Of a stretch of DNA of 9,540 bases, positions 310 to 9,286 are shown piece after piece; position 1 is the first letter of the stretch, and every line of letters starts with the position of its first letter. Location of the stretch: assembly GCA_002345845.1 (NCBI GenBank), contig DDWF01000013.1:1-9540 (forward strand). The letters run 5' to 3'. Under the pieces are notes generated by a model. It ran no database searches. It was not told the origin of the DNA and worked only from the letters and a program-made list of their open reading frames with translations. This DNA comes from Betaproteobacteria bacterium UBA2293. Its GTDB lineage: Bacteria > Pseudomonadota > Gammaproteobacteria > Burkholderiales > Rhodocyclaceae. Position numbers and translations under genes: made by a program.

Positions 310-696
310 ATGGAATTCCTCGTCGCCAGCGCCATCGGCGTCATGGCCGCCGCCGGCATCTACCTGATGCTGCGCGCCCGCACCTATCCGGTCGTCCTCG
401 GCCTGGCACTGCTCACCTACGCCACCAACACCTTCCTGTTCGTCTCCGGCCGCTTGACCGTCAATGCGCCGCCGGTCATCCGCGACGGCATCACCACCTA
501 CACCGACCCGCTGCCGCAGGCCCTGGTGCTGACGGCCATCGTCATTTCCTTCGGCATGACGGCAGTGATCGTCGTCCTCGGTTTGCGCAGCTATCTGGAA
601 AGCGACACCGACCAGGTCGATGGCAAGCCGGATGAGATTCACAACGAGAATCTCGAATCGGTACCGACAGCCGCCGAGCGGAAGGCCGATCAATGA
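310..696 (+). CDS. mrpC: Mrp cation/proton antiporter subunit C (NuoK-like)
   Basis: This 128-residue small membrane protein has three hydrophobic helices: residues about 3-20, 27-45 and 68-93. The segment DPLPQALVLTAIVISFG is the family signature of MrpC/MnhC, which is homologous to NuoK of respiratory complex I. A charged, probably cytoplasmic tail of about 30 residues follows the last helix. The length is close to the usual 110-130 residues. In the Mrp complex, C packs between the A and D antiporter-like subunits and is needed for assembly and ion transport. The ATG start lies one base after the upstream TGA, and the gene ends in an ATGA overlap with mrpD (start 693, stop 694-696), so translation is probably coupled. 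Confidence 0.95.
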   Translation: MEFLVASAIGVMAAAGIYLMLRARTYPVVLGLALLTYATNTFLFVSGRLTVNAPPVIRDGITTYTDPLPQALVLTAIVISFGMTAVIVVLGLRSYLESDTDQVDGKPDEIHNENLESVPTAAERKADQ

Positions 697-2231
697 GCCA
701 CTGGATCATCTTCCCCATCCTGCTGCCGGCCCTGATGGCGCCGATCCTGCTGATGGGCGCCCGCTTCGATCTGGTGCTGGCGCGCATCTTCTCGCTCGCC
801 ACCTGCGTCGCCCTGCTCGGCGTCGCCATCCGCCTGTTCCTGGCGGCCAGCGACGGTGCCGTACTGACCTACGATCTGGGCAACTGGCCGGCGCCCTTCG
901 GCATCATCCTCGTCCTCGACCGCCTGTCGGCGCTGATGCTCGTGCTCACCGCGGTCCTGGCGCTGCTCGTCCTGCTCTTCGCCATTGACGGCGACGACAC
1001 CCGCGGCCGCCACTTCCACGCCCTCTACCAATTCCAGCTGATGGGCATCAACGGTGCCTTCCTGACCGGCGACTTCTTCAACCTGTTCGTCTTCTTCGAA
1101 GTGCTGCTGATCGCCTCCTACGGCCTGATGGTGCATGGCGGCGGCCCGGCCCGGCTGAAAGCCGGCGTCCAGTACGTCTTCATCAACCTGGTCGGTTCCT
1201 CGCTGTTCCTGATTGCCGTGGCCATGATCTATTCGGTGACCGGCACGCTGAACATGGCCGATCTGGCCCGCCAGGTGCCGCAGGTCACGGCGGCCGACCA
1301 GGCCCTGCTGCAGGCCGGCAGCCTGCTCCTGCTGCTGGTCTTCTGCATCAAGGCAGCGTTGGTGCCGGTACATTTCTGGCTGCCCGCCACCTATGCCAAG
1401 GCGCCGGCCGCCGTCGCCGCCCTCTTCGCCATCATGACCAAGGTCGGCGCCTACTGCATCATCCGCCTCTACATCCTCGCCTTCGGTGCCGATGCCGGCG
1501 ACGCTGCCTGGCTGGCCGCCCCCTGGCTGCTGCCGGCGGCGCTATTCACCCTGATCCTCGGCGCCATCGGTGTCCTCGCTGCCCGCTACCTCGGCCAGCT
1601 GGCAGCCTTTGCCGTGATCGGCTCAATGGGTGTGCTGCTGTCGACTGTCGCCCTGTTCACCCCGGCCAGCCTGTCGGCGGCGCTCTACTACCTGATCCAC
1701 TCGACCATCGCCGGCGCCACGCTATTCCTCATCGCCGACCTCGTCGCCAACCGCCGCCCCGGCCACGCCGACGCGCTTTCCGTCGCCCCGCGCTTCTCGC
1801 AGCTGGCCCTGCTCGGCGGCCTGTTCTTCTTCGCTGCCATCGCCATGAGCGGCATGCCGCCGCTCTCCGGTTTCATCGGCAAGCTGCTGATCCTCGATGC
1901 GGCACGCAGCCACCCGACCGCCATCGGCTTCTGGGCAATGATCCTCGGCACCTCACTGCTGGTCATCGTTGGCTTCGGCCGCGCCGGCAGCACGCTGTTC
2001 TGGAAGAGCACCGGCGAGGCGGGTGCCTTTCCCGAACAACCGCGCCGCAACACCCTCGGTTACGTCTCGATCGGCGCCCTGCTTACCTGCTTGGTACTGC
2101 TCACCTTTTTCGCCGGGCCGCTGACCCGTTACCTCGACGCCACCGCCCTCCAGGTCTACGACACCAGCCGTTATGCCGACGCCGTGCTGCTGCCGCTGCC
2201 GCAGTTCATCGATGGAGCCGAACCGCCATGA
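693..2231 (+). CDS. mrpD: Mrp cation/proton antiporter subunit D (NuoM/N-like)
   Basis: This 512-residue polytopic membrane protein has about 14 hydrophobic helices and belongs to the proton-conducting membrane transporter family shared with NuoL/M/N of complex I. Two residues known to be essential in MrpD are visible: a glutamate in a transmembrane helix (E136, in FNLFVFFEVLLIASYG) and a lysine (K220, in FCIKAALVPVHFWLP). They match Bacillus E137 and K219. The segment HFWLPATYAKAPAAVAALF is also typical. The length is normal for the family (about 490-560). The start is the ATG of an ATGA overlap with mrpC, with GAAGG seven bases upstream inside mrpC. The end overlaps mrpE in the same way. 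It forms one of the two proton/cation channel modules of the antiporter. Confidence 0.97.
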   Translation: MSHWIIFPILLPALMAPILLMGARFDLVLARIFSLATCVALLGVAIRLFLAASDGAVLTYDLGNWPAPFGIILVLDRLSALMLVLTAVLALLVLLFAIDGDDTRGRHFHALYQFQLMGINGAFLTGDFFNLFVFFEVLLIASYGLMVHGGGPARLKAGVQYVFINLVGSSLFLIAVAMIYSVTGTLNMADLARQVPQVTAADQALLQAGSLLLLLVFCIKAALVPVHFWLPATYAKAPAAVAALFAIMTKVGAYCIIRLYILAFGADAGDAAWLAAPWLLPAALFTLILGAIGVLAARYLGQLAAFAVIGSMGVLLSTVALFTPASLSAALYYLIHSTIAGATLFLIADLVANRRPGHADALSVAPRFSQLALLGGLFFFAAIAMSGMPPLSGFIGKLLILDAARSHPTAIGFWAMILGTSLLVIVGFGRAGSTLFWKSTGEAGAFPEQPRRNTLGYVSIGALLTCLVLLTFFAGPLTRYLDATALQVYDTSRYADAVLLPLPQFIDGAEPP

Positions 2232-2755
2232 CCGCCCACCACCACTCGCCCGAAGAACTGACGCTGTTCCAGCGCTGGGTACCGCATCCGCTGCTGACCG
2301 TCACCCTGACCCTGATCTGGCTGCTGCTGGCCAACGGCTTCAGCATCGGCGGCCTACTCGTCGGACTCGCCCTCGGTCTCAGCATTCCGCGCATCACCGC
2401 CAGCTTCTGGCCCGACCGGCCGCACATCCAGAACTACGGCAAGGCATTCGCCTATGTCCTGCTGGTCCTCTACGACGTCGTCGTCGCCAACGTCCAGGTC
2501 GCCCTGATCATCCTCTTCCGCCCGCTGAAGAGCCTCAACACCTGCTGGGTCTGCGTGCCGCTCGACCTGACCAATCCGGAAGCAATCACCGTCTTCGCCG
2601 GCACCATCACGATGACACCAGGCACGGTCAGCTGCGACCTCTCGGCCGACGGCCGCGCCCTGCTCGTCCATTGCCTCGACGCCGCCGATCCGGAAGCCGC
2701 CGTGCGCGACATGAAAACGCGCTACGAGGCCCGCCTGAAGGAGATTTTCCCGTGA
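2228..2755 (+). CDS. mrpE: Mrp cation/proton antiporter subunit E
   Basis: This 175-residue protein has hydrophobic segments at about residues 20-34, 37-52 and 72-92, followed by a soluble C-terminal domain of about 80 residues. The sequence FRPLKSLNTCWVCVPLDLTN followed by TVFAGTITMTPGTVS is characteristic of MrpE/MnhE/PhaE. The segment TITMTPGT is the most conserved part of the family. MrpE is a small structural subunit needed for full antiport activity of the complex. It begins at an ATGA overlap with mrpD and its TGA stop overlaps the GTG start of mrpF, so it is an internal gene of a tightly coupled operon. Length and composition match the neighbours and no frameshift is seen. Confidence 0.95.
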   Translation: MTAHHHSPEELTLFQRWVPHPLLTVTLTLIWLLLANGFSIGGLLVGLALGLSIPRITASFWPDRPHIQNYGKAFAYVLLVLYDVVVANVQVALIILFRPLKSLNTCWVCVPLDLTNPEAITVFAGTITMTPGTVSCDLSADGRALLVHCLDAADPEAAVRDMKTRYEARLKEIFP

Positions 2756-3021
2756 TCGAAGCCGCCATTTACTATGCCTACGGCGCGCTCTGCCTGGCCC
2801 TGATCTTCAACCTCTGGCGCCTGTTCGCCGGCCCCTCGATCATCGACCGCATCCTTGCTGTCGACACCATGGTCATCAACGTCATCGCCCTGATCATCAT
2901 CTACGGCATCCACCAATCGACCCCGCTGTACTTCGAAGCCGCCCTGCTCTTCGCCATGTTCGGCTTCGTCTCCACCGTCGCCTACTGCAAATTCCTGCGT
3001 CGCGGCGACGTCATCGAATAA
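2752..3021 (+). CDS. mrpF: Mrp cation/proton antiporter subunit F
   Basis: This is an 89-residue protein of three membrane helices. The start is GTG at 2752, overlapping the mrpE stop as GTGA. The first codons read MIEAAIYYAYGAL. Longer readings of the frame into mrpE are not credible because they would overlap most of a conserved gene. The motif FAGPSIIDRILAVDTMVIN is the MrpF/MnhF signature, with an aspartate pair inside or beside the second helix. The length fits the usual 85-95 residues. It is a small subunit of the antiporter complex and is often annotated as a K+/H+ antiporter or bile-salt efflux-related subunit. It ends in TAA at 3019-3021, which overlaps the Shine-Dalgarno sequence AAGGAAAA of mrpG. 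Confidence 0.95.
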   Translation: MIEAAIYYAYGALCLALIFNLWRLFAGPSIIDRILAVDTMVINVIALIIIYGIHQSTPLYFEAALLFAMFGFVSTVAYCKFLRRGDVIE

Positions 3022-3032
3022 GGAAAACCGGC

Positions 3033-3410
3033 ATGGACAATATCGGTGAAATCCTCGTCAGCGCGCTCCTCGTCATCGGCGCCACCTTCGCCCTGGTTGG
3101 CTCCTACGGCCTGGTGCGTCTGCCGGAAATGATGACCCGCCTGCACGCCCCGACCAAGGCCACCACCCTCGGTGTCGGCGGCGCGCTGCTCGCCTCGATG
3201 TGCCATTTCCTGTTTTTTTCAGGCACCCTCTCCATCCACGAGCTGCTGATTTCCTTCTTCCTGTTCCTGACCGCGCCGATCACCGCCCACTTCATGACCA
3301 AGGCCTACCTGCACACCCGGCCGGATATCGGCGAACACCTGCCGAAACCGGAAGGCGGCGACTGGAGCACGTACGAAACGCCAAGCGGCGACGTCCGGCC
3401 GCGCACCTGA
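3033..3410 (+). CDS. mrpG: Mrp cation/proton antiporter subunit G
   Basis: This is a 125-residue protein with three hydrophobic helices (about residues 6-27, 46-63 and 68-90) and a polar C-terminal tail of about 30 residues. The loop GLVRLPEMMTRLHAPTKATT after the first helix is the signature of MrpG/MnhG/PhaG. The start ATG at 3033 is preceded by AAGGAAAA at 3020-3027, five bases upstream. It is the last gene of the C-D-E-F-G series and lies 11 bases after mrpF. No hairpin with a T-run follows it, so where the operon's transcript ends is not evident. It completes the membrane complex that exchanges Na+ or K+ for protons. Confidence 0.95.
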   Translation: MDNIGEILVSALLVIGATFALVGSYGLVRLPEMMTRLHAPTKATTLGVGGALLASMCHFLFFSGTLSIHELLISFFLFLTAPITAHFMTKAYLHTRPDIGEHLPKPEGGDWSTYETPSGDVRPRT

Positions 3411-3877: not shown

Positions 3878-6800
3878 TCAATGCCTGTCGCCTGCGTAGG
3901 CCGTAATGTAGGCATAGCAGAGTTGCGGATCATCGGCGAGATCGGCGAAGCGGAATTTGCGCTTTTGCCAGGCGGAGAAGTCGGGGTAGTTACTGTTTTC
4001 GGTATAGCCGGGATTGCCCAGCAGCATGCCCCAGTCGTTGAAAATGCGCTGGAGCAGCGGGCCTTCCGCGACGATGCGAAAGTCCTCGTGCCGGTTGTCG
4101 GCGCGAATGCTGTCGCGCAGAGCATGCAGGACCTGCTGCTTGCCTTCGAGCAACTGCATGAATTCGCCGTCCTGATGGATCAGACAACCAGAGACGCCGT
4201 TCTGCCGGTTGTGGTTCTGGATGGGTTGCAGCATTTCGAGCAGTGCGTCTTGCGTCATCGGCTGTTTACAGCGGCTGACGTAGATCAGGAAGTACAGCGG
4301 TGCGCTGGTTTCACCGGCGAGTTCGCCGCGTTCGCGCTCGAAGGTTTCGCAGAAGACCTCTTTCTCCAGCGGGCGGTGAAAGTAGTAGCCCTGGATCAGG
4401 TCGCAGCCGTAGGTACATAGTTCGCGCTGCTGGAGGCCCGTTTCGACACCCTCGGCGACCAGTTTCAGACCGAGCGAACGGCCGATTCCGATGACTGCAC
4501 GGATGATGGTCCGGCTTTCCTCGCTTTTCTCGATACCGTCGACGAAAGCGCGGTCGATTTTCAAGACATTGACCGGCAGCCGGGTCAGTTGTGCCAGCGA
4601 TGAATAACCGGTGCCAAAGTCGTCGACCGCAACACGCAGGCCCAGGTCGGCCAGTCGGCGCAGGATGCGCAGATTGGTCTCGACATCAGCCATCAGCGAG
4701 GTCTCAGTAATTTCGAGCAGCAACCGGGCCGGATCGGCCCCGGTTTCCTGCAAGATGGTGCTGATTTCCTCGACCAGGCTGGCTTCGTTCAACTGGCGCG
4801 CCGAAACATTGACCGAGACATAAGGTGCTTCCTCGCCCCAGCGCTGCCGCCATTCGGCCTCCGCCCGGCAGGCTTCGCGGAAGACCCACAGGCCGATCGA
4901 TACGATAGCGCCGGTCAGCTCGGCAATCGGTATGAAGACGGCTGGAGAGATGTCACCGCCGACCGGCTTCCAGCGCAGCAGCAGTTCGGCGCCGGTGATA
5001 CGTCCGGTTTCGGCGGTGACGATGGGCTGAAAGCGCGTTGAAAACTCCTGACGCTCGATGGCCAGCCGCAATCCGTTGGTAATCGCCAGGCGCTGCTGCG
5101 CCTGCTCCTGCAGGCTGTCGCTAAAGAACTGCCAGCCATCGCGGCCGCATTCCTTGACGGCATACATCGCGGTATCGGCGTAGCGCAGCAGGTCGTCGGC
5201 CGAATGGGTGCTGCCATTGCCAATGGCGACGCCAATACTGGCGGTGACGAACAGATCGATGCCTTGAAAAACGACGACTTGGCGAAGCACATCGTTGATC
5301 CGTGCGGCCAGCACCGACATACCGATCGGCTGCTCAACCTGTTCGCAAAGGATGACGAATTCGTCTCCGGCCAGGCGGGCCACTGTGTCTCCGGGGCGTA
5401 CCTGTTCGATCAGCCGGCTGGCAACGGCTTTCAGCAATTCATCGCCGGCTTCATGGCCCTGCGTATCGTTGATCAGTTTGAAGCCATCGAGATCGACAAA
5501 GAGCAGCGCCACGTTCATGCCGCTGCGTCGTGAGCGCTGTAGGGCGTGGGTGAGGCGCTCGCGGATCAGGGCACGGTTAGGCAAGCCGGTCAGCGTGTCG
5601 TGCGTGGCACGGCGGGTCAGTTCCTCCTCGGCCCGTTTGCGCTCAGTGATGTCGCGCATGGTGACGACCAGCAACCAGTTGTCACCGTCGCGGAACTTGG
5701 CGATTGAAGCTTCGAGCGGGAAGAAGCTGCCATCCTTGCGGTAGCCCATCACCTCGGTTCGGCCGCTCATCCGCCGTTCGCTCTCTTCGCCATTGACGAA
5801 GGCCTGGAGCATTTCGGCGTGACGCTGGCGGAAATGCGGCGGCAGCAGCAGGTGGATCGACATGCCCAGCAGTTCCTGTTCCCGGTAGCCGAACAGGGCC
5901 TGGGTGCTGCGGTTTGATTCGGTGATGACACCGTGGGCATCGGTGGCGATGATCGCCATGTCGGCAATGGACAGGATGTGCTGTGCGTTGTCGATGCGCA
6001 GGCGGGCGGCGCCTATTTCAGCCGCCAGTCGCGCGGCAACGGCGGGCGAGGCCGGCGATTCGTGGAGGCGGGCAGCCTGCTTCTGCGCCCGGTAGCGTTC
6101 CGGGATTTGCGGCGGAATGCGGCCGAAATCCTGCACGATATCGAAACTGCCATCGGCTTTGCAGCAGGCCAGGTAGCTGTTGACGCTGGCGTGATGCGTT
6201 TCGGCATCCATCTCGACGACGCCCTGCGGGCCGGTGACTCGAACGCGCTCAAGGGCATCGACCAGCGCTTCGCTGGCGACGCTGCCGGCCGCTTCGGCGG
6301 CGCGGGCGAAGGCATGAACACAGAGGTAGGTGCCTTCGCCAAAATTGGTCAGAACACCGTTGCCGCGTGGCCAGATGCCGGTGACACCAGGCTGGCTGGC
6401 GAGTTGTTGCAGGTACTGGCGGTTTGCTGCCGTCTCCAGCGACATGAAATAGGTATTGCTCGAGTACAGGCCTTCGCGCACCGCTGGCGGCAACTGGCTG
6501 GCCAACATTTCATCGTAATGGCCCATGACCACGGCCATCCGTTGCTTCAGGCCCCGTTCGGCAAATTGGGTGAGCAGGGTCAACTGGTCGAGGCCGGCAA
6601 AATACGGCACGAAGACATCGGCACCCGAGCGGGCGACCTGTTCCAGCAACTGATGGATTTCCGCCGCGCTTGCGCCGATGGGCAGGTATTCCTCGCCGGC
6701 TACATGTCCGTCGACACGCTGGAGCGCACGCTTGGCGGCGTCGATGGACCCGCGCGGCCATTCGTAGTTGTTGCCGGCAAAGAACATCTTCAGGCCATAG

Positions 6801-7207
6801 CGGCGGGCCATGAACGGAATCATCTTGTCGATCTGCTGGTTGGGCAAGGCGGCAAAATGGAAAAAATAACGGCTGCTGATGCTGCCTTCGTAAAATGAGA
6901 AATTGAGCAGTGGAACCTGTCGTGGCTCAGCGACTTGAACGGTGACGGCGATACGCGAATTGGACATCAGATTGCCGATGATGGCGACGCAGTGATGTTC
7001 GTCGACCAGCCTTGTGGCGGCCGGGACAGCAGTGTCCGGCAGGCTGCCATCGTCCTCGATGATCAGTTTGATCGGCCGACCAAGGACGCCACCACGTTTA
7101 TTGATTTCGGCACAGGCGATACGAGCGGCGCTAACGATTTCCGGCCCGTAAAGGCCGACCAGCCCGGTCAGTGGAGGCATCAGGCCCAAACGAATCGGTT
7201 CAATCAA
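3878..7207 (-). CDS. AmiC-like sensor–PAS–GGDEF–EAL–BLUF cyclic-di-GMP signalling protein
   Basis: This is a 1109-residue soluble protein. Residues about 1-375 form an amide/urea-type periplasmic-binding fold, with YEG 106-108, PNQ 122-124 and NNYEWPR 146-152 matching AmiC. It begins directly at the first beta strand, so there is no signal peptide and the domain is cytosolic. A PAS domain (410-524) carries H463 and R483 at FixL/DosP haem positions. The GGDEF domain (530-690) has D572, AGDEF 613-617 and the inhibitory site RPGD 604-607. The EAL domain (715-953) has E741 (ELL variant), DD 862-863, K883, E919 and Q939. The BLUF domain (970-1065) has Y976, N1000, Q1018, W1059 and M1061 at AppA spacing, followed by a 44-residue cap. 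It should make and/or degrade c-di-GMP under the control of blue light and a small ligand. The start is TTG with GGGAG six bases upstream; no other in-frame start lies close upstream. It stands alone, convergent with mrp. Confidence 0.93.
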   Translation of the reverse strand: MIEPIRLGLMPPLTGLVGLYGPEIVSAARIACAEINKRGGVLGRPIKLIIEDDGSLPDTAVPAATRLVDEHHCVAIIGNLMSNSRIAVTVQVAEPRQVPLLNFSFYEGSISSRYFFHFAALPNQQIDKMIPFMARRYGLKMFFAGNNYEWPRGSIDAAKRALQRVDGHVAGEEYLPIGASAAEIHQLLEQVARSGADVFVPYFAGLDQLTLLTQFAERGLKQRMAVVMGHYDEMLASQLPPAVREGLYSSNTYFMSLETAANRQYLQQLASQPGVTGIWPRGNGVLTNFGEGTYLCVHAFARAAEAAGSVASEALVDALERVRVTGPQGVVEMDAETHHASVNSYLACCKADGSFDIVQDFGRIPPQIPERYRAQKQAARLHESPASPAVAARLAAEIGAARLRIDNAQHILSIADMAIIATDAHGVITESNRSTQALFGYREQELLGMSIHLLLPPHFRQRHAEMLQAFVNGEESERRMSGRTEVMGYRKDGSFFPLEASIAKFRDGDNWLLVVTMRDITERKRAEEELTRRATHDTLTGLPNRALIRERLTHALQRSRRSGMNVALLFVDLDGFKLINDTQGHEAGDELLKAVASRLIEQVRPGDTVARLAGDEFVILCEQVEQPIGMSVLAARINDVLRQVVVFQGIDLFVTASIGVAIGNGSTHSADDLLRYADTAMYAVKECGRDGWQFFSDSLQEQAQQRLAITNGLRLAIERQEFSTRFQPIVTAETGRITGAELLLRWKPVGGDISPAVFIPIAELTGAIVSIGLWVFREACRAEAEWRQRWGEEAPYVSVNVSARQLNEASLVEEISTILQETGADPARLLLEITETSLMADVETNLRILRRLADLGLRVAVDDFGTGYSSLAQLTRLPVNVLKIDRAFVDGIEKSEESRTIIRAVIGIGRSLGLKLVAEGVETGLQQRELCTYGCDLIQGYYFHRPLEKEVFCETFERERGELAGETSAPLYFLIYVSRCKQPMTQDALLEMLQPIQNHNRQNGVSGCLIHQDGEFMQLLEGKQQVLHALRDSIRADNRHEDFRIVAEGPLLQRIFNDWGMLLGNPGYTENSNYPDFSAWQKRKFRFADLADDPQLCYAYITAYAGDRH

Positions 7208-7434
7208 AAGGGGCTCCCACGGACTGTAAGAATTTACGATTCTACCGGCTACCGCAGATGTCCCGATGAGTTTGTAGTTTGCGTATGTACACGAATTTGT
7301 ATTGTTCGATTGGGTATCTATTCATAAAGCCTGTGCCTCTCCGAGTAAGCAGGAAAGTGAAGGCGCGTCCAGGCGATTACCGCCGTCCCGAAACCAGAAT
7401 GCAGCGACTAGCCAGTTCAATGGCATGAAAATGC
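7208..7434. other. non-coding upstream region of the BLUF/c-di-GMP gene
   Basis: No credible gene is seen on either strand. The part from about 7222 to 7330 is clearly more AT-rich than its surroundings and presumably contains the minus-strand promoter of the signalling gene. I could not find a -35/-10 pair good enough to call. On the plus strand this stretch ends in a strong terminator (7435-7468), so it could also hold the start of a short plus-strand transcript divergent from the signalling gene. Confidence 0.4.
7214..7218 (-). promoter_or_regulatory. ribosome binding site deciding the TTG start of the BLUF/c-di-GMP gene
   Basis: Minus-strand GGGAG lies six bases before the TTG at 7207. 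The in-frame codons immediately upstream contain no ATG, GTG or TTG. The next internal ATG (7183) lacks a comparable site and would remove the first beta strand of the ligand-binding domain. Together these support a TTG start and the absence of a signal peptide. Confidence 0.65.
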
Positions 7435-7732: not shown

Positions 7733-8200
7733 TCAGTGCTTGCTGTGATCCATCGGCATCGGTGCCGCTACCGGGCGCACCACCTTGGCGTCGACCTGCT
7801 TGCTGCTGCCGTCCTCGAAAGTGAGGGTGATCGGCACCACGTCGCCTTCCTTCATCGGTGCCTTGAGGTCGATCAGCATGACGTGCAGGCTGCCCGGCTT
7901 GAGCACGGCTTCGCCGCCGGCCTTGATCGGGATGTCGGGTACCGGGCGCATCTTCATGACGCCGCCCTCGTTGAGGTGGGTGTGCAGTTCGGTGACTTTC
8001 GATACCGGGTTGGCCGCCTTGACCACCTTGACGTCGGCGGCGCCAGCGTTGCGGATGACCATGAAGGCGCCGGTTGCCGGGGCATTCGGCGGCGCCAGGC
8101 GGACGTAGGGTTCATGCACGGTGACCTGGTCGGCGGAACCGGCCAGGGCGCCAGCGGACAGCATCAGGGCGGAAGCGAGCAGCGACAGCTTTTTCATCAT
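7733..8200 (-). CDS. PCu(A)C-type periplasmic copper chaperone
   Basis: This is a 155-residue protein from the ATG at 8200. An alternative ATG at 8215 would add five residues and overlap the sco stop. I prefer 8200 because the purine-rich AGAGAG at 8205-8210 lies just upstream of it and the product then begins MMKKLSLLASALMLSAGALA, a normal signal peptide. The copper motif H-x10-M-x21-H-x-M is exact: H73, M84, H106 and M108. A further H75 and M82 lie beside it, and the C-terminal tail MPMDHSKH could also bind metal. PCu(A)C proteins bind Cu(I) in the periplasm and pass it to Sco proteins or directly to the CuA site of cytochrome oxidase. It is the last gene of a three-gene operon, 11 bases after sco, and is followed by a terminator. 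Confidence 0.93.
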   Translation of the reverse strand: MMKKLSLLASALMLSAGALAGSADQVTVHEPYVRLAPPNAPATGAFMVIRNAGAADVKVVKAANPVSKVTELHTHLNEGGVMKMRPVPDIPIKAGGEAVLKPGSLHVMLIDLKAPMKEGDVVPITLTFEDGSSKQVDAKVVRPVAAPMPMDHSKH

Positions 8201-8211
8201 GGTTCTCTCTT

Positions 8212-8814
8212 TCATGGCTGGTTCAATACATTGCGAATCTCGGCCACCACCTGCTCCGGCGGCGCCCCGTGCGGCAGCTTGCCGAGCAGGCGACCGTCGC
8301 GGCCGATGACATAGGTTTCCGAGCTGTGGTCGACGACGTAGCCATCGCCGGCCGTCTCCACTTTCTGTTCGGCGTAGAAGACGCCGTAGCGGCGGCTGAC
8401 GTCGGCGACTTCTTCCGCCGTGCCGGTGATGCCGACGATGGCCGGATGGAAGAACTCGACGTATTCCTTGAGCCGGGCCGGCGTATCGCGCTTCGGGTCA
8501 ACTGAAATGAAGATCACGGCAACCTGCGCCAGCTCCTCGGCGCTCAGCTGATTCAGGCCGGTGGCCGTGGCTGCCAGCGAGGTTGGGCAAATGTCGGGAC
8601 AGAAGGTGTAGCCGAAATAGACCAGCACGGCCTTGCCGCGGTAGTCGGCCAGGGCGACCGGACCACTCGCCGAGGTCAGGGTGAAATCGCCGCCGGCCGG
8701 CAGGATGGCGGCTGGCAAGGGACGTTCCGGCAGCTCCGGCTCCCAGAACAGGCCGAGCCCGGTAACCAGGGCGACGAGCAGGACGACGACGGCAAGCAGA
8801 AGGCGTTCGGACAT
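8212..8814 (-). CDS. Sco1/SenC family copper chaperone and thiol-disulfide protein
   Basis: This is a 200-residue protein with an N-terminal membrane anchor (residues about 5-24) and a periplasmic thioredoxin-like domain. The copper ligands of the family are all present: C72 and C76 in FCPDICP, and H163 in VVDHSSETYVI. The motif ISVDPKRDTP and the ending of the domain are typical. Sco proteins load copper into the CuA centre of cytochrome c oxidase, or act as thiol reductases there. I chose the ATG at 8814, one base after the upstream stop (TGAGATG). A TTG at 8838 would add eight residues and overlap the upstream gene. It sits between the 156-residue membrane protein and the PCu(A)C gene, which supports a joint copper delivery role. 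Confidence 0.94.
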   Translation of the reverse strand: MSERLLLAVVVLLVALVTGLGLFWEPELPERPLPAAILPAGGDFTLTSASGPVALADYRGKAVLVYFGYTFCPDICPTSLAATATGLNQLSAEELAQVAVIFISVDPKRDTPARLKEYVEFFHPAIVGITGTAEEVADVSRRYGVFYAEQKVETAGDGYVVDHSSETYVIGRDGRLLGKLPHGAPPEQVVAEIRNVLNQP

Positions 8815-8815
8815 C

Positions 8816-9286
8816 TCAGGAATGGCTCCCGGTAACAAAGCGGAAAGGGATGGCGACGCGCTGGCTGCCGGTTTCGATCAGTACCGTCGCCTGCCACTCC
8901 ATCTGGCCGGTGATGCAGACCGGCAGCGTGACCTCGGCAGCATGCAGGCCGTTGCCGCGGTGTTTGAAGTGCGGCCGGTTGTAGCCCATGTTCATGTCCA
9001 CCCCGGCGAAATCGATTTCTACCCGTGACGGAGCAAAGCCCTGGGTCGTCACCCGCACCTCGAAGGGCTTGACCAGCGGGATCGGCAAGGTGCCCATGAG
9101 CAGTTCGACGCTGCCGCCATCAGGCAGTTCAACGCTGCATGGACCGCGTTGCAGATTGCAGGCCGGGTCCGATTTGACCACCACATCTGCCTTCGGCAGC
9201 AGCATGGGAGATAGCTTGTAGCCGACGACAACGACCAGGGCGATGAGCAGGATGCCAATCGCGTCAATCAGGATTTTCTTGTTCAA
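8816..9286 (-). CDS. membrane-anchored periplasmic protein of uncertain family, first gene of the sco operon
   Basis: This 156-residue protein has one N-terminal membrane helix (residues about 5-24) and then a soluble, mostly beta-strand region that should lie in the periplasm. The start appears to be TTG at 9286, with an in-frame stop four codons upstream and only a weak ribosome binding site. The next ATG lies after the membrane helix. Possible metal or redox residues are C43, C50 and C124, M98, M100, H106 and H109, the last four in the segment VDMNMGYNRPHFKH. That segment resembles the methionine-rich turn of FixH/YtkA-like domains, but I am not sure of the family. It ends one base before sco, so it is almost certainly co-transcribed and may help copper transfer or oxidase assembly. 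Confidence 0.8.
   Translation of the reverse strand: MNKKILIDAIGILLIALVVVVGYKLSPMLLPKADVVVKSDPACNLQRGPCSVELPDGGSVELLMGTLPIPLVKPFEVRVTTQGFAPSRVEIDFAGVDMNMGYNRPHFKHRGNGLHAAEVTLPVCITGQMEWQATVLIETGSQRVAIPFRFVTGSHS

Follow-up and report, generated by a model that had tools for sequence, protein, structure and literature searches.

A BldP-family protein with an AmiC-like sensor, PAS, GGDEF, EAL and C-terminal BLUF domains, predicted to act as a blue-light-activated c-di-GMP phosphodiesterase

A five-domain protein of the BldP family

The window analysed here, the whole stretch of 9,540 nucleotides from contig DDWF01000013.1 of Betaproteobacteria bacterium UBA2293, encodes on its minus strand a protein of 1109 residues that combines a type I periplasmic-binding-protein domain with PAS, GGDEF, EAL and BLUF domains. 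Comparison with its relatives makes it quite likely that this protein is an ortholog of BldP, that is, a soluble cytosolic phosphodiesterase of cyclic di-GMP (c-di-GMP) that is switched on by blue light. Judged by sequence, it is a new member of the BldP family, and the layout itself is already CHARACTERISED elsewhere. An architecture with characterised relatives is no discovery in itself; the remaining interest lies in the metabolite input. The gene and its parts are as follows.

3878-7207, minus strand: whole gene (BldP family), Peripla_BP-PAS-GGDEF-EAL-BLUF, 1109 amino acids; TTG start at 7207, stop at 3880-3878
7214-7218, minus strand: GGGAG, Shine-Dalgarno-like, six bases before the TTG start, found by eye
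6149-7198, minus strand: Peripla_BP_6 (residues 4-353), probably cytosolic type I periplasmic-binding-protein domain, AmiC/UrtA-like; Pfam E 2.8e-70, with matches to solved UrtA and AmiC, an AlphaFold2 model and Foldseek matches
5648-5983, minus strand: PAS (residues 409-520); Pfam E 1.5e-14; His463 and Arg483 align with FixL positions
5138-5608, minus strand: GGDEF (residues 534-690); Pfam E 3.8e-44; motif AGDEF (613-617), inhibitory-site RxxD at 604-607
4370-5071, minus strand: EAL phosphodiesterase domain (residues 713-946); Pfam E 9.3e-71; motif ELL, catalytic residues intact
4025-4297, minus strand: BLUF flavin photoreceptor (residues 971-1061); Pfam E 7.8e-24; Y976, N1000, Q1018, W1059, M1061
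3881-4024, minus strand: C-terminal tail after BLUF (residues 1062-1109), candidate BLUF cap; predicted helix 1094-1106

A sequence-only reading of the window had proposed these five domains, in this order, in one 1109-residue frame, and the Pfam scan, in which all five exceed the curated cut-offs, bears this out; the frame lies on the minus strand, and a plus-strand reading of the same interval contains 8 stops. The start of the protein is shared (as M) by most aligned relatives. Its hydrophobicity, calculated over 19-residue segments, reaches a maximum of 2.0 in the segment beginning at residue 644, and seven hydrophobic segments reach 1.6. Because the protein has no hydrophobic start and its strongest hydrophobic segment lies inside the GGDEF domain, it is likely to be soluble and cytosolic, in agreement with the cytosolic N-terminus suggested earlier.

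The BldP proteins of Allochromatium vinosum and Magnetococcus marinus are tabulated in a 2022 review as BLUF proteins with FAD, blue light (+) and phosphodiesterase activity, and the optogenetic enzyme EB1 is given there as derived from BldP (PMC8846402). The genome taken as A. vinosum DSM 180 (G013) contains two BLUF frames, one with five domains and one with BLUF only, and the genome taken as M. marinus MC-1 (G050) contains three, one of 1122 residues versus two of 168 and 144 amino acids, which are too short for BLUF plus EAL. Ryu et al. are said to have described in 2017 BldP proteins with C-terminal EAL-BLUF modules, whose light activation depended on oxygen. As neither genome has a further BLUF frame long enough to include an EAL domain, BldP must be the five-domain protein, which is the only reading of these frames that we see. 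The long BLUF proteins of both genomes match the window protein in all five domains and in their order, and each shares 58% identity with it over nearly its full length (636 of 1106 and 636 of 1097 aligned positions), so that homology to the BldP proteins extends over the whole length and includes the domain order. In the genus of Allochromatium humboldtianum (locus L060), all eight genomes encode exactly one BLUF frame of more than 1100 amino acids, the others being 139 to 320 amino acids long; over the PAS-to-BLUF part, to which these loci were limited, the eight long frames show 51-57% identity with the window protein. BldP of A. vinosum and M. marinus and the window protein have the same key BLUF and EAL residues, and they differ in that the A. 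vinosum protein has a GGDEF motif where the window protein has AGDEF, and in the lineage of the host.

The sequence-only reading knew of no characterised protein of this layout. This does not hold, since BldP, which must be the long BLUF protein of A. vinosum and of M. marinus, has the same architecture, and there are many proteins of this domain order, two of them functionally described, which in substance is what that reading had itself named as speaking against it. Its account of the domains, their order, the N-terminal fold and the likely cytosolic location stands, and its claim of novelty does not. Among the titles and abstract openings of the matches listed in a literature search, the five-domain architecture was absent, and BldP was mentioned with BLUF only in PMC8846402; one 'BLUF-GGDEF/EAL' protein is tabulated for Methylomicrobium alcaliphilum (PMC4844311).

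Blue-light input and phosphodiesterase output

According to the mechanism that we propose, the flavin in the C-terminal BLUF domain would absorb blue light, the rearranged Tyr-Gln-flavin network would be relayed to the adjacent EAL dimer, and the EAL dimer would then hydrolyse c-di-GMP, favouring the motile state. The PAS domain, which possibly binds heme and senses O2, and the amide/urea-type binding domain would be further gates on the same output, and the GGDEF domain would serve as a weak cyclase or as a nucleotide-binding regulatory domain. That the window protein has the same blue-light phosphodiesterase activity, that its PAS domain and N-terminal ligand play these roles, and that motility is affected is what we infer.

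A gapless alignment with AppA places the residues of the flavin network at Y976, N1000, Q1018, W1059 and M1061, the equivalents of AppA Tyr21, Asn45, Gln63, Trp104 and Met106, which we take to be the residues of a photoactive BLUF domain. In 156 BLUF-bearing sequences (loci and proteins, with some near-duplicates), Y976 is kept in 155, N1000 and Q1018 in all 156, W1059 in 155 and M1061 in 142, with leucine in the other 14; in the median BLUF column the commonest residue is present in 54% of these sequences. Pairwise distances between BLUF domains track the distances measured over the remainder of the protein (45 rows; Mantel r 0.85, p 0.001), so BLUF has mostly travelled with that remainder. 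The possibility that BLUF is a degenerate passenger was considered and rejected in view of the kept photoactive residues and this parallel divergence.

The EAL residues checked, among them E741, N800, E832, E835, D862, D863, K883, E919, E922 and Q939, are presumably those that position the metals and the water, and they are identical in all 119 proteins of a set that includes the window protein and from which 5 of 124 were dropped as shorter than 930 amino acids. By the residues present, the EAL phosphodiesterase of the window protein appears catalytically competent. A helix is modelled at residues 949-965, between EAL and BLUF, and among the segments measured in 1500 pairs of 102 proteins the EAL-BLUF linker has the lowest identity, with a mean of 32% versus 78% for EAL. 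We infer that the EAL dimer may receive the light signal where it touches BLUF and the BLUF cap, not via a sequence-specific linker.

As in BlrP1 of Klebsiella pneumoniae and YcgF/BluF of Escherichia coli, BLUF is joined to EAL in the window protein. In contrast to the window protein, in which BLUF comes last, these are much shorter proteins that lack PAS, GGDEF and binding-protein domains and have BLUF first; the arrangement of an N-terminal BLUF followed by EAL is not found in the window protein, whose BLUF part matches BlrP1 chains weakly (E 5.2e-5 and 2.4e-4).

Distribution and evolution

A search with residues 955-1109 gave 186 candidates, of which 33 proteins passed, and 32 of these have all five domain types; the exception, P0006, has 617 amino acids and lies on a contig of 3320 bases, so it may be cut. 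Residues 1-400 retrieved 836 passing proteins among 7997 scored, and by our count BLUF is present in 99 of the 120 listed. In the species genomes of GTDB, searched with the peptides AGNNYEW and P[LY]LNFSFY, relatives of the N-terminal domain are encoded in 162 stretches, of which the best 80 were kept; in these the domain is 66-81% identical. A chimera, a chance arrangement or an assembly artefact is ruled out by the many relatives with the same five domains, and so is a unique layout, by the same relatives from the protein searches and the genome loci.

BLUF is present in 45 and missing in 14 rows of a quick tree of 59 GGDEF-EAL rows, which carries a long-branch warning for L049 and leaves out L056, a locus cut by a contig end. 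The rows nearest to the window protein are from Parazoarcus and Zoogloea. The distribution is patchy: within the family of the Parazoarcus genome, a BLUF frame of more than 1100 amino acids was found in 3 of 81 genomes, Parazoarcus included, and any BLUF in 23 of 81. The organisms of the locus set include purple sulfur, iron-oxidising, methanotrophic, magnetotactic and nitrifying bacteria, and many are metagenome bins; this range would suggest life at light-exposed redox gradients.

Several relatives deviate in length or composition. Four loci (L056, L063, L071, L074) have, compared with the window protein, about 100-117 extra residues after the binding domain and before the aligned part of the PAS, perhaps an added domain. 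At L008 (8962-10743, 593 amino acids) and L025 (8950-10323, 457 amino acids) the family gene ends early inside the contig, by frameshift, decay or assembly error. P0066, a relative of 779 residues whose precomputed domains include Peripla_BP, PAS and GGDEF and lack EAL and BLUF, may be a form of the family with cyclase function only, and the BLUF domains at G119:C11:220234-220509 and G088:C1:102366-102638 lie in frames of 736 and 519 amino acids that may be other multidomain BLUF proteins.

The AmiC-like sensor domain

A profile of 38 family members, compared with the PDB, finds urea-binding proteins and AmiC first. The N-terminal domain was modelled with AlphaFold2 at a pLDDT of 94.4, and Foldseek ranks 1-10 for this model are all urea or amide binders (TM 0.90-0.91, 24-26% identity), the next matches reaching at most 0.85. 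Because the ten best structural matches all bind urea or amides, the fold of the N-terminal domain is, as modelled, that of the AmiC/UrtA amide/urea-type binding proteins, as the sequence-only reading had recognised. The domain is not UrtA by the NCBIfam model (TIGR03407), for which the window protein scores 152 bits versus a cut-off of 492.75. In the alignment with AmiC, S85 and Y150 are kept, T106 is replaced by S104, Y104 by N102, I151 by E149 and Y152 by W150, and His230 is present besides; with S85, Y104, T106, Y150 and Y152 taken by us to be the ligand contacts of AmiC, the full set of contacts is not found in the window protein. The putative pocket is different from that of AmiC. No recurrent gene neighbourhood was seen either: when 975 neighbours of 84 loci (mechanically chosen frames, clustered without annotation) were compared, no family occurred in more than 6 loci. 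With some AmiC contacts replaced and no recurrent neighbour, the nitrogenous nature of the ligand is unproven.

AmiC has a cytosolic signalling role, as the sensor of the window protein probably does. Unlike in AmiC and the UrtA-type proteins, the fold is fused to PAS and output domains in the window protein. Of the periplasmic-binding-protein clan, whose domains are called periplasmic in the 2022 review, only SBP_bac_3 is presented there as studied in c-di-GMP networks (PMC8846402); the window protein and its relatives would add an apparently cytosolic, amide/urea-type member of this clan that is not SBP_bac_3 and in many of the loci shares its polypeptide with a blue-light switch.

The AmiC-like domain followed by PAS also heads 18 histidine kinases from several phyla (L026, L030, L034, L041, L046, L055, L057, L058, L059, L061, L062, L065, L066, L067, L069, L072, L073, L076). 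In a tree from which 5 truncated or contig-end rows were left out, these form one side of a single starred branch, with 61 GGDEF-class rows on the other. At ten positions of the putative pocket (S82, N102, S104, E107, Y148, E149, W150, H230, D232, E233), all 62 GGDEF-class rows and all 18 histidine-kinase rows have the same residue, 4 unclassed rows being left out. The putative pocket residues of the histidine kinases thus match those of the c-di-GMP class, and their PAS does not.

Alternative interpretations

Several points weigh against the reading of the window protein as a BldP-type, light-activated phosphodiesterase. Its activity is predicted from relatives, the assignment of G013 and G050 to A. 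vinosum DSM 180 and M. marinus MC-1 is a presumed identity and a weak point, the full-length model shows no reliable domain packing (pTM 0.38), and BLUF presence changes 7 times on the GGDEF-EAL tree, at least 5 of them on starred branches, so that light input is dispensable in some lineages. In addition, the GGDEF domain also looks intact, and cyclase activity is conceivable. The protein might then be a two-way enzyme, in which engagement of an N-terminal sensor would make GGDEF produce c-di-GMP, and blue light would make EAL break it down; we consider this possible and lean against it. None of the 119 proteins deviates at the GGDEF positions checked, in GDEF itself or at the RxxD site, the first residue of the motif being alanine in 109, serine in 8, glycine in 1 and histidine in 1, and AGDEF cyclases can be active. 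Against this, FVDLDGF of the window protein corresponds to FINLDGF in the M. marinus ortholog, which thereby lacks an aspartate that we take to be metal-binding. Both BldP proteins are, moreover, tabulated in the review only as phosphodiesterases (PMC8846402).

For the PAS domain, the chances are about even that it is an ordinary one without heme, any effect of O2 then coming from elsewhere. The window PAS matched 17 PDB sequences, including 7 named FixL, 4 named DosP and 1 named heme PAS sensor. In the FixL alignment, what we take to be the positions of the heme ligand and the distal arginine are occupied by His463 and Arg483, and in the family the histidine is found in 61 of 62 and the arginine in 60 of 62 GGDEF-class rows versus 1 of 18 and 2 of 18 histidine-kinase rows. 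However, among 21 aligned control PAS domains from outside the family (taken from 25 loci, which were fetched out of 72 non-family matches in five genomes), the histidine was present in 12 and both residues in 6. The pair is therefore not diagnostic and was discarded as proof of heme. Heme binding by the PAS domain is plausible, its residues being heme-compatible only, and gas sensing is possible; the reported oxygen dependence of BldP light activation would fit a heme PAS. The window PAS is of the FixL kind, with a putative heme. DosP shares the PAS-GGDEF-EAL arrangement and is one of the closest structural matches to the full-length model, and it differs from the window protein in having neither BLUF nor a binding-protein domain.

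The N-terminal domain, finally, might no longer bind any ligand and be a structural or dimerisation module only. The lack of a recurrent neighbourhood would agree with this, and part of the constancy of the pocket is built in, because N102, S104, Y148, E149 and W150 lie inside the peptides used for the locus search. S82, E107, H230, D232 and E233 lie outside these peptides and are yet invariant in both classes, and all ten positions are invariant in the 119 proteins, which were found by another route (via residues 1-400 or C-terminal words) and most of which are close relatives. We therefore regard a purely structural role as improbable. The most far-reaching view is that BldP proteins are three-input gates, in which c-di-GMP is set jointly by a conserved cytosolic metabolite sensed by the AmiC-like domain, by O2 sensed by a heme PAS and by blue light sensed by BLUF. 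This we hold to be rather unlikely; the overlap of the search peptides with the pocket lowered its odds and raised those of the structural module. If it were true, the AmiC-like sensor, with a putative pocket common to several phyla and to two output types (c-di-GMP enzymes and histidine kinases), would be a new, widespread ligand-sensing module for light-exposed oxic-anoxic interfaces. The ligand of the N-terminal sensor would reveal the metabolite that is balanced against light, and it could add a chemical co-input to optogenetic tools built on BldP.

Genomic context

A search against Rfam gave no match and one against a viral fold library nothing relevant, and a plasmid search led nowhere, its 4 records all showing Mrp antiporter matches. 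The five-domain gene is located between plus-strand genes for an Mrp-type antiporter and a minus-strand PCu(A)C-SCO1 pair. The antiporter subunits (310-3410, plus strand; Oxidored_q2, Proton_antipo_M, MNHE, PhaG_MnhG) run towards the 3' end of the gene, and an MnhF-like stretch was noticed by eye inside a longer frame ending at 3021. Upstream of the BldP-family gene, at 7733-9286 on the minus strand, are genes for a PCu(A)C copper chaperone and an SCO1/SenC protein, together with a protein of 156 amino acids without a Pfam match (8816-9286, minus strand).

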